A stretch of 64,000 nucleotides of DNA from Promethearchaeota archaeon (GTDB lineage Archaea > Asgardarchaeota > Lokiarchaeia > Sigyniarchaeales > SOKP01): positions 1-64,000 of the forward strand of contig JAFGGO010000114.1 of assembly GCA_016930515.1 (NCBI GenBank). The letters are read 5' to 3'. Below the pieces are notes generated by a model that worked only from the letters and a program-made list of their open reading frames with translations, did not search any database and had not been told where the DNA came from. Positions 46,424 to 50,772 of the stretch are shown one piece after another (the first letter of the stretch is position 1; the number at the start of each line of letters is the position of its first letter). The position numbers and the translations under genes were made by a program.

Positions 46424-47176
46424 ATGCAGTTTGACTCGGGATTTAGTGTGTTTCGATCGAACAAGGAGCGTTCTATCGTCCCTAGCGGGGAAAAAGCCTT
46501 GGACGAGATTCTTTCGGGAGGTTTCCATCGAGAGCTCGTCTATCTCATCTACGGAGACAAGAAAAGGAGCGCAAGCGTCTTGCTTAGCACCTCAGTCGAG
46601 GCGCAAAAGGCTTGCGTCAACGGAGGAATCGGAGAAAGAGCGCAAGTAGCATTCATAGACGGTACGAATCGATTTAACCCTTATGACATCAGCAAATACG
46701 CCGTTTCGCAGCGTTTATCGCCACAACGAGTGTTGGAAAACATTCTTGTCGCTCGAGCGTTTACTTGGGACCAAATGATAGAGATCTTGGAAAATAGACT
46801 TTCTAATCTCGAGGGGATCAAGGTATTACTCGTCTCGGGAATCACGTGCCTGCTTCAAAACCACGATAAGCGAACCTTCGAAGACTTGCTCCGGGCAATA
46901 GGCGGTATAAAAAAAGCGCTTGAAAAGTCAAGGCCCTTGATCGTTTTAACCGCCCCCTTGAACGAATATTCCCTGTTTCGACCCGAAGGGGGAAAAATTC
47001 TCGCTCATTTTGGAAGCGTGTTGGTCTTGATAAACGATAACGAGCGCTTCACGGAATATACGCTCGTTCAGCACCCCTACCTCCCAGAACGCAGGATTTT
47101 GAGGTGGAAGCCCAGAAGAAGCAAGAGGCCCCTGTCCTGCACCACGCGAAACGCCAAGATTGACAATTGGTTTTAA
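46424..47176 (+). CDS. RadA/Rad51-like paralog with degraded Walker A and B
   Basis: SGEKALDEILSGGFHRELVYLIYGDKKRSAS, VAFIDGTNRFNPYDIS, VLENILVARAFTWDQM, GGKILAHFGSVLVL, HPYLPERRILRW. Confidence 0.75.
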   Translation: MQFDSGFSVFRSNKERSIVPSGEKALDEILSGGFHRELVYLIYGDKKRSASVLLSTSVEAQKACVNGGIGERAQVAFIDGTNRFNPYDISKYAVSQRLSPQRVLENILVARAFTWDQMIEILENRLSNLEGIKVLLVSGITCLLQNHDKRTFEDLLRAIGGIKKALEKSRPLIVLTAPLNEYSLFRPEGGKILAHFGSVLVLINDNERFTEYTLVQHPYLPERRILRWKPRRSKRPLSCTTRNAKIDNWF

Positions 47177-47183
47177 CATGAGA

Positions 47184-48356
47184 CTATAATTTTTTCATTT
47201 CCTTGATTAAAGAAACGATAGCTTGATATTTTTCGAGCGCTTCAGCAACATTTTTTTTTTCCAAGGCGTTCAAGCAGGCTATATTTATCGATCGTATTTG
47301 ATTCTTGAGATTTTTGCTTTTCTCGAGTCGTTCTTTTTCTTCGTTTATCGATTTTTTGATGTCGTCCAAAAATGCCTGATATTTCTGCTCAAGTTCCTGA
47401 TTGCCCGATGAACGCGAAAAAGAAATGATGGTCTCACAATTTGAGATCGCATTATCGAAAAACCCTTCTTTTAGATTTTGTTGAAAGTCCAGCTCTAATT
47501 GAGCAATATTTTCTCCAACTTTTTGAAATTCTTCTATAGCAGTGGTGATTTCTTTTAAGCGATTCTCTAACTTGGGAAGCAGTTCGTTCATCTCCTTTAA
47601 TTTAATCAAGGCGATTTCAAGAGTGATTTCATTCTTAGCTTCTTCAAATTGACCGCTTTTTTCTAGTTTTTTGCTCGTGTCGATTACTTTTTCGATTTTT
47701 TCGTATGTCTTTCGAACTTCCTCGTATTCCTCGTATTTTAATTTTTGTATGAGGCTGTGCTCTAAAGTGCCCCATTTTCTCTGATATAATTCTTTTTTGA
47801 CACCTTCGAGGGTATATATATGTTCCCAAGCCCGGTCTATAACATCGTTTGCCTTATCAATAGCTTGGAGCCTTATGGCGTTATAAAATTGAATTTCCAA
47901 GCGATCGAGAGATTCTACTTTATTATCTTGTTCAACTTGATACCCCTTCCAAATTTCTTCGTCCTTATTAATACAATAATTTGCCGAAGGATAGCGAGAG
48001 AGGTTATAATGTTGTTGATATTTTTGTTTGAACTCCATTACGAGCTCGTGGGCTTTTTTAATATCGTCCACATCCAAGTAGTCGTCAAATTTTTCTTTTA
48101 ATTTATCGCTCAATAGTACAAGGTCAACGGTTTTTGATTTATTGGTAGAAGTAGATCGTATTTTTTCTATGTAATCTTGTTGTTCTTTTACAAATTGCTC
48201 CAAGTTTATCTTCCGAGCTAAATCAATTATCCTTTCCGAAATTTTCAGGGCTTGATCGACTTTTCCCGTGCTATAGCAACTAGCTTGTGAAAGTTTAAGC
48301 TCTTCTATTTCAGCTATGATTGCGATCTTATCGAGGTTATCTGATTTTGAAGGCAA
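47184..48356 (-). CDS. Coiled-coil repeat protein, paralog of the adjacent gelsolin-headed protein
   Basis: Shares DKANDVIDRAWEHIYTLEGVKKELYQRKWGTLEHSL / GATEALEKAKKLLNKVVDEGIKKKWQSLETQF and DNAISNCETIISFSR / QAILACENIIALSK type units with the next gene. Confidence 0.75.
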   Translation of the reverse strand: MPSKSDNLDKIAIIAEIEELKLSQASCYSTGKVDQALKISERIIDLARKINLEQFVKEQQDYIEKIRSTSTNKSKTVDLVLLSDKLKEKFDDYLDVDDIKKAHELVMEFKQKYQQHYNLSRYPSANYCINKDEEIWKGYQVEQDNKVESLDRLEIQFYNAIRLQAIDKANDVIDRAWEHIYTLEGVKKELYQRKWGTLEHSLIQKLKYEEYEEVRKTYEKIEKVIDTSKKLEKSGQFEEAKNEITLEIALIKLKEMNELLPKLENRLKEITTAIEEFQKVGENIAQLELDFQQNLKEGFFDNAISNCETIISFSRSSGNQELEQKYQAFLDDIKKSINEEKERLEKSKNLKNQIRSINIACLNALEKKNVAEALEKYQAIVSLIKEMKKL

Positions 48357-48369
48357 GAAACAATATCAC

Positions 48370-50772
48370 CTAGGAATCGTTTTTAAAGTCCTCGAGTTGT
48401 TTAATGATCGTTTCAAAAGCGTCCAAGGATTCGTTAAACTTGCTCTCGTCCAGGAAATTAATTCCCTTATTACTCAAGAGTACGATTTGGTCTAGCAATT
48501 GTTCGTATTTTCGAGATTCTACCTCTTTGATTTCGTTTTCCAGCTCATCTTGGAGAGACGCTAATATTTTCTTAAATCGTTCTTCACAACTCTTTTCGTT
48601 GTTGTCCCGAGCTATTTGTAGTGCTTTTTTACAATTCTCCATTGCTTTCTCAAGCTTGTGCTCGTTCCTATCTGATTCAATACTTTTTTCAATATCTTCA
48701 ATTTCATGTAATATACTGGTCTTTTTTTGTTTCAAGAGTTCCATGTCTTTTTTGATATCGTTGATCTTGTTCTTGAGGTCATTAAAACAAGCATCTTGAA
48801 TCTCTTCTTCGATTGATACGATTTTAGAAATTGCTTCTTTAATTTTATCTTCATTCTTCAATTCCAAGACTTCTTGAAGTAATGAATCTGCTACTTCCCG
48901 AGTTTCTTCTATTTCATGATTGATGTCTTCAATCCGCTCAGAGAAATTCTGTACCAACGCATTTTCCCCACTTTTCTTAGAGATCTCAATGATTTTTTCG
49001 CAAATCTTTATTGAATCGCTAAATTCGTGTTTATTTTCGCTTTTATCTAATTTTTGCTTTAGTACATTCAATTCAATCCTAAATTGTGCTTGATTCTCTT
49101 TTTCTTTTAATAATTCGTGTTTCATATTTTCTAATTGGGATTTTTGATCCTTAAAGTCGGGACCGTGTAATTCCTCTAGCATGGAATTGATTTTAGATAT
49201 CGCTTCATCGAGCTTGCCCATCTTTTGAAGCTCCATAAGTTCTTCAATCAGGGTTTCGGCAATTTCCTTGGTTTCCTTGAGTTCTAGCTCGATATCTTCT
49301 TTAAGAAGCGTGAATTTCTCCACGAGTGAGTCATTTTCCTTTTTTTTAGATAATGCGATTATGTTTTCACAGGCAAGTATTGCTTGGGTCAAGAAATTAT
49401 TATTCTTACTCTCCATAAGATCAAGCTCTAAAGAATTAATTTTTTCGTTAAAATTAGCGAGTTCAAATAGTTCAGAAGTTAAGCTTTTTTCTAGCTGTTC
49501 TAATTTTTTCTTTTCTTCAATAAAATCAGAACTACTTAATTTTTTCATCACGGAAGAAATTTCTTTAATAGCTTCTTCAAGACGATTTTCTTCTTTTAAT
49601 ATCAAGATTTTTATCAAGCTCTTTTCATACGCTTGCCTGTAATTATCCAATTTTTGTCTCAGGGTTTTGGAGATTTCCACATATTTTTTCTCCAGGCCAA
49701 ACTTTTCTGTTCCAGGCAAAATTGATAATAAAGACTCGCAATTCTTGATTGCATCTCCTAAATGATCGTCTTCCAGATTAGATTTTATCTCCGATTCCAA
49801 AAGATCTATTTTGTTCAGGATTTTTATTCGTTCTTCTTCCGTCTTTTTTTTTTTAGAATTGAATTGAGTTTCTAACGATTGCCACTTCTTTTTTATCCCC
49901 TCGTCAACGACCTTGTTTAACAACTTTTTGGCTTTTTCAAGAGCTTCAGTTGCGCCTTCCATTTCGTTTTTACTAACAAGCTCGGAAAATTCGCTTTCAA
50001 TTCTTATTAGTGATTGAAGGTTTTTATCAACTGATGCCATTGCAGCTTGCTGAGCGTTATCGTCCTTTAAGAAAAGCTCCTCGATGATCGGAATGGAAGA
50101 AAGGTTCACATTAAATGTGCTGTATTTTTTCTTGAAATCACTGACCAACTTGTGTGCCTCTTCATATTTATCGTTTTCCAAGAACTTATCAAATAGTTCT
50201 TTTACTGCTTGAGCTTCGTTGGTTATATCTTTGACTAAATTCTTAAGTTGCTCTCGTTCCTTTAGATTTTCAATGAGTTCTTTTTGATCTTTTTCGAGTG
50301 CTTTGTCTTTTATTTCTTTTGACAATTCGATAATGCGATCCGAAATGACAGTCGCTTCTAGATATTTTTCTTCCTTGATAAGAGAATCCATCTCGTCTTT
50401 TAATTCGTTTATTTCATCCACGATAGGAGCAAGGATGTCCTCTTGGGCTTTAATGTGTCCTTCTAGGTCTTGTTTCTTGAAACTAAATATTTTAAAAAAG
50501 TCAAAGGGTTCTTCGCCAGATTCAATAGTAATATTTCTCAAAACCGCAAGATCGGGGTATTTTCGGGCAAATAATTCTCTTATTTGAGGAATATATGCTT
50601 TAAGCGTATAACTAGCTGATTTACTCACCCAGATATACATTCTTTTCGACTTTCGCGAATATATCGCCAATATCGTGTATAACGTAAATAGATCAAGGGG
50701 ATCGTCTGGAGTTTGCTCTTCAAATGTTCCTGAGTAGCTTAATTTATAGATTTTAATGTCTTTATCAGCCAT
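48370..50772 (-). CDS. N-terminal gelsolin-like domain fused to about 700 aa of coiled-coil repeats
   Basis: RMYIWVSKSASYTLKAYIPQIRELFARKYPDLAVLRNITIESGEEPFDFFKIF matches the gelsolin/ADF-H consensus (vyvWvGk.as ... v.eG.Ep..F...F). Confidence 0.75.
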   Translation of the reverse strand: MADKDIKIYKLSYSGTFEEQTPDDPLDLFTLYTILAIYSRKSKRMYIWVSKSASYTLKAYIPQIRELFARKYPDLAVLRNITIESGEEPFDFFKIFSFKKQDLEGHIKAQEDILAPIVDEINELKDEMDSLIKEEKYLEATVISDRIIELSKEIKDKALEKDQKELIENLKEREQLKNLVKDITNEAQAVKELFDKFLENDKYEEAHKLVSDFKKKYSTFNVNLSSIPIIEELFLKDDNAQQAAMASVDKNLQSLIRIESEFSELVSKNEMEGATEALEKAKKLLNKVVDEGIKKKWQSLETQFNSKKKKTEEERIKILNKIDLLESEIKSNLEDDHLGDAIKNCESLLSILPGTEKFGLEKKYVEISKTLRQKLDNYRQAYEKSLIKILILKEENRLEEAIKEISSVMKKLSSSDFIEEKKKLEQLEKSLTSELFELANFNEKINSLELDLMESKNNNFLTQAILACENIIALSKKKENDSLVEKFTLLKEDIELELKETKEIAETLIEELMELQKMGKLDEAISKINSMLEELHGPDFKDQKSQLENMKHELLKEKENQAQFRIELNVLKQKLDKSENKHEFSDSIKICEKIIEISKKSGENALVQNFSERIEDINHEIEETREVADSLLQEVLELKNEDKIKEAISKIVSIEEEIQDACFNDLKNKINDIKKDMELLKQKKTSILHEIEDIEKSIESDRNEHKLEKAMENCKKALQIARDNNEKSCEERFKKILASLQDELENEIKEVESRKYEQLLDQIVLLSNKGINFLDESKFNESLDAFETIIKQLEDFKNDS

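Follow-up and report, generated by a model that had tools for sequence, protein, structure and literature searches.

Two adjacent genes in a 64,000-nucleotide stretch of a lokiarchaeial genome (hereafter the window, meaning the whole of the DNA that was analyzed) encode an 800-aa protein, the first 98 residues of which almost certainly adopt a gelsolin fold, and a 390-aa protein of the same body family that has no such head, and in our judgment the two are very probably a functional unit. Both are read from the reverse strand, the head gene (with homologs in Lokiarchaeia) at 48370..50772 and the partner gene at 47184..48356; the partner begins with a TTG start codon 13 bp from the head-gene stop. 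Both tandem open reading frames are present with the lengths and spacing given in the first-pass annotation of this DNA. The genome is 4.0 Mb in size and 94% complete. Convergent with the pair, at 46424-47176, is a gene for a 250-aa Rad51-like ATPase, which is kept beside the pair in two other genomes (G001 and G002).

We propose that the two genes specify a two-protein module specific to Lokiarchaeia. The first protein would consist of a long helical body capped by a single gelsolin domain of the ProGel type, from which the usual calcium ligands are missing, and the second would be its ancient headless paralog; the bodies of the two would associate as a heteromer, the head would dock on Lokiactin independently of calcium, and the complex could act as an actin-linked scaffold or tether. 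This mechanism in its entirety, from associating bodies through calcium-independent docking to a scaffold or tether, is put forward tentatively, at a little below even confidence.

The gelsolin head and its putative ligand

When the window protein was searched as a single sequence against Pfam and the PDB, every match was below threshold and nothing was decisive. A profile of 32 family homologs ranked the Thorarchaeota ProGel (7c2f) first among PDB entries (1.1e-5, hmmsearch), followed by Loki 2DGel (7whg), adseverin and villin, and it matched five of the same genome's own gelsolin domains with an hhalign probability of 97.4 (E 1e-11); Pfam PF00626 itself reached E 0.06 at best and matched 3 of the 32 members. 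The AlphaFold model of the head (18 sequences) had a pLDDT of 89.1 and a pTM of 0.81, and the best 50 Foldseek matches to it in the PDB were all gelsolin-family chains, the first being ProGel with a TM of 0.81 normalized by ProGel. The family profile, hhalign and the structural matches therefore agree with the first-pass reading of the N-terminal ~97 aa as a gelsolin domain, which we place at residues 1-98 (50479..50772, reverse strand). A longin or other fold, named there as the outcome that would overturn the reading, is ruled out by the gelsolin-only best 50 PDB matches.

Calcium ligands were compared by alignment to domain 1 of the genome's own 2DGel rather than by structure, and at the positions that we take, partly from general knowledge, to be those of the type I and type II calcium sites, the head family has YT, FD, FN or VN in place of the type II Gly-Asp, Leu in place of the type II Glu, and no type I Asp. 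Because these ligands are missing from the head, calcium control of the usual kind is unlikely, and the calcium dependence that the first-pass annotation had allowed for in a proposed actin assay is disfavored. By the head profile, the window protein has a single gelsolin domain, as against two or more in calcium-regulated gelsolins. Among known proteins, ProGel is the closest by both profile and fold and shares the single gelsolin domain, but it is a stand-alone protein of ~90 aa, whereas here the domain heads a helical protein of 350-800 aa (several members are short, at ~350 aa) that is accompanied by a headless paralog. The Asgard 2DGel proteins (Loki 7whg and Heim 7whf; PMC9433394), for which the type I and II site types are described, share the gelsolin fold, occur in the same cells and have C-terminal extensions, but they have two domains, type I/II calcium sites and a WH2-like linker, whereas the head protein has one domain and no matching calcium ligands. 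Eukaryotic gelsolin, villin and adseverin have the domain fold in common with the head; unlike the pair, they consist of three to six tandem, calcium-regulated domains and have no helical rod partner.

Two features of the head count against assuming that it binds actin. Gelsolins lay their long helix into the cleft of actin, and in most members of the head family this helix contains a proline (Pro62) that ProGel lacks; in the AlphaFold model the helix is interrupted (H55-58 and H61-71). In addition, the WxG motif, WIGK in most relatives, is WVSK in the window's genus, a change of WG to WS. The head is nevertheless better conserved than the body, with identities of 63% versus 39% between the window and G001 and of 43-47% versus 30-31% to more distant relatives, and this slower evolution is as would be expected for a conserved ligand. 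The window's genome encodes a bona fide actin of 381 aa (Pfam actin, 440 bits) and, separately, a canonical 330-aa 2DGel. From the fold, this actin and the slow evolution of the head, actin binding is plausible, and we somewhat favor actin as the candidate ligand. At least six more proteins with a single gelsolin domain and differing tails are encoded in the same genome (contigs C136, C85, C158, C160, C166 and C159), and single-gelsolin proteins of other Asgard families give weak matches to the head profile.

The helical body and the headless partner

Behind the head lies a conserved body domain (residues 108-326; 49795..50451, reverse strand) that is homologous to the partner by the body HMM and by hhalign (97.4%), followed by helical super-repeats over approximately residues 338-800 (48373..49762, reverse strand). 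Helical units of ~120 aa had been described in the 800-aa protein, and the four motifs then quoted start at residues 340, 463, 586 and 709, a spacing of exactly 123 aa. Offset scoring of residues 301-800 peaked at the same 123 aa, with a score of 1.06 against a maximum of -0.07 for heptad-block shuffles, none of which (0/500) reached the peak. We infer that the full-length head protein is rod-shaped. Pfam matched the bodies weakly to TPR and UVR hairpins; for TPR_2 the window head gene scored 20.3 bits against a curated cut-off of 27, and the window partner had no Pfam TPR match.

Residues 12-224 of the partner match a body HMM built solely from head genes (E 8e-34), and the homology spans the 210-aa body that follows the head. 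The first-pass claim that the partner repeats the architecture of its neighbor without the head therefore stands in part: the partner is headless and belongs to the same body family, but it shows no significant internal periodicity of its own (438 of 500 shuffles scored at least as high), and "same body family" is the better wording than "same repeat architecture". A degenerate head hidden in the partner was ruled out, as the partner aligns with the post-head body from its residue 12 onward and is modeled as helix throughout. In a tree of body domains, the bodies of head genes form one clade (support 96/98), and those of partners group with the inner body of the G008 head gene (82/85), a gene that itself holds a partner-type body according to both the body HMM and the tree. 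On this sequence evidence the partner is an ancient headless paralog, with a single early split of head genes and partners, and since the two kinds of body are separated in the tree, the duplication predates the radiation of the family.

The AlphaFold model of the partner (pLDDT 88.7, pTM 0.44) contains only helices; long ones (40-49 residues) and short ones (15-20) alternate in a unit of ~65 residues. The model looks like the elongated helical body that had been anticipated, and it is likely that the partner body is elongated, its overall shape being uncertain at that pTM. Foldseek matched the model only to local TPR-like hairpins, with global TM values of ≤0.25; TPR proteins such as LGN and P58IPK share these hairpins, but differ in global fold and in the alternation of long and short helices. 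This alternation suggests chained bundles, but with no spectrin match in Foldseek and poor global TM, a spectrin-like body is not claimed.

A stand-alone body-domain gene of 165-188 aa is kept beside mutL in many genomes of the family (L083, L084, L085, L086, L088, L090 and L091), and in several of these loci an EF-1beta-like gene is also adjacent; the version in the window's genome encodes 557 aa (L083:4344-6014; G000:C111). Because of this stand-alone form next to mutL, the body family is not actin-specific.

Conservation of the pair and its fused forms

A gene for a headless helical protein directly follows the head gene, on the same strand, in all 33 loci where the following gene is readable. 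These loci come from 31 genomes, all Lokiarchaeia (the window, G001, G002 with three loci, G003, G008, G011, G017, G018, G021, G023 (C29), G026, G027, G034, G036-G040, G042, G044, G046-G049, G052, G054, G056, G058, G060, G062 and G063), and they bear out co-occurrence of the pair across genomes, which had been proposed as a check. Twenty-eight partners are of the simple type and five have a C-terminal beta domain; the spacing of the two genes ranges from a 4-bp overlap to ~110 bp. It was the beta domain that identified the beta-type partners of G002:C460 and G018, which match the body HMM weakly or not at all. Apparent orphan partners in G038 and G040 were dismissed because they lie at contig ends where the tail of the head gene is still visible. 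The flanking genes vary between genera, so the pair travels as a unit. Close homologs in named genomes, found in a scan with a 12-row alignment, occupy 17 loci, all from Lokiarchaeota or Lokiarchaeia. Strong matches to the head family were obtained in 36 of ~64 genomes of the same family and in a few others from the same order, outside which the only matches were weak ones to other gelsolin-type domains. Since ~28 of the 64 have no strong head match, the module is dispensable within the family.

In some genomes the same parts occur on a single chain. A gelsolin head, rod and beta domain are joined in G004, G023 (C42), G030, G066, G070 and G076, the beta domain of ~315 aa matching that of a separate partner gene at E 1e-63 to 1e-110; in G002, G008, G018 and G023 the beta domain is on the separate partner gene. 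The presence of the same parts on one chain or two argues for joint function, and because such natural fusions and single-chain forms exist, the head protein and its partner are regarded as a functional and probably also physical pair; a physical heteromer we consider fairly probable. The beta domain had no PDB or Pfam match other than weak ones to DUF11 and adaptin-C2. Three beta-type partners begin with another conserved domain of ~110 aa (L037:9369-9704, L040:8970-9305 and L053:2577-2912), for which the sole member scanned, L040, had no Pfam match. G076 carries a tandem of two gelsolin-headed rod-beta genes (L048:219-4783), possibly the state before one copy lost its head.

A longin-TPR-longin gene (L045:3776-5677, L051:4103-6181 and L095-L098) recurs beside these forms: G004, G030 and G070 have it directly 3' of their single-chain gene, and in G065, G070, G074 and G078 it adjoins a beta-domain gene that stands separately. 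It co-occurs with the beta domain. The longin assignment comes from a Pfam match below threshold (Intu_longin_1, E 0.0025) together with our reading of the N-terminus. Both the beta domain and this gene are absent from the window's genome. In the window's genus, a decayed longin-TPR remnant with nine stops directly follows a beta-type partner (G002:C366:4950-5846, L052). The ancestor may have been a single chain of gelsolin head, helical rod and beta-rich tail that served, together with the longin-TPR-longin protein, as an actin-to-membrane/GTPase linker in a prokaryote; the lineage of the window would then have dropped the tail and the longin partner while retaining a headed and a headless rod subunit. 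We regard this history as distinctly unlikely.

Alternative functions and significance

Gelsolin folds need not bind actin; in Sec23/Sec24 the fold belongs to a scaffold of several domains, helical and beta ones among them, a feature shared with the present family. The head could likewise have been re-used for a non-actin ligand, the module being a Lokiarchaeal membrane/GTPase scaffold whose link to actin is historical. The lost calcium ligands, the helix-breaking proline, the altered WG motif and the longin-TPR-longin gene that follows single-chain genes and adjoins beta-domain genes all fit this account, but the best structural and profile match of the head is an actin-bound domain (ProGel), the window's genome encodes actin and a set of gelsolins, and the head is still conserved there without a beta domain or a longin-TPR gene; we judge it rather unlikely. 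When the window protein and three of its relatives were scanned with Pfam, neither the vWA trunk nor the zinc finger of Sec23/Sec24 was recognized.

Known Asgard actin regulators (profilin, ProGel and 2DGel) sequester, sever or cap, and the head could similarly be a ProGel-like monomer-sequestering or capping domain, with a TPR-like body that anchors or regulates it and a partner that is co-transcribed without forming a heteromer. A single domain closest to ProGel, the weak TPR and UVR hairpin matches and the short members would suit such a role, which is nonetheless unlikely given that the obligate tandem pairing and natural fusions favor a complex. That an ordinary coiled-coil protein resembles gelsolin by chance, as the lack of a single-sequence database match might suggest, is exceedingly improbable, being already refuted by the gelsolin-only Foldseek matches and opposed by concurring profile, hhalign and fold evidence.

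We retain the actin-linked scaffold or tether as the preferred reading. The first-pass proposals that only one partner would bind actin and that the pair could be a crosslinker are inferences. No anchor for a tether was identified in the window. A search of the open-access literature found no published description of a gelsolin-headed rod with a headless sister.

Actin forms a regulated cytoskeleton in Asgard archaea. If our proposal is true, a conserved gelsolin-headed helical protein accompanied by an obligate headless sister would rank as a first candidate scaffold or linker of this cytoskeleton, and with single-chain relatives lying beside the longin-TPR-longin gene, a link between actin and membrane can be tested directly. 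Its persistence across Lokiarchaeia makes the pair a candidate actin-linked scaffold, open to experimental test, in the prokaryotes most closely related to ourselves.
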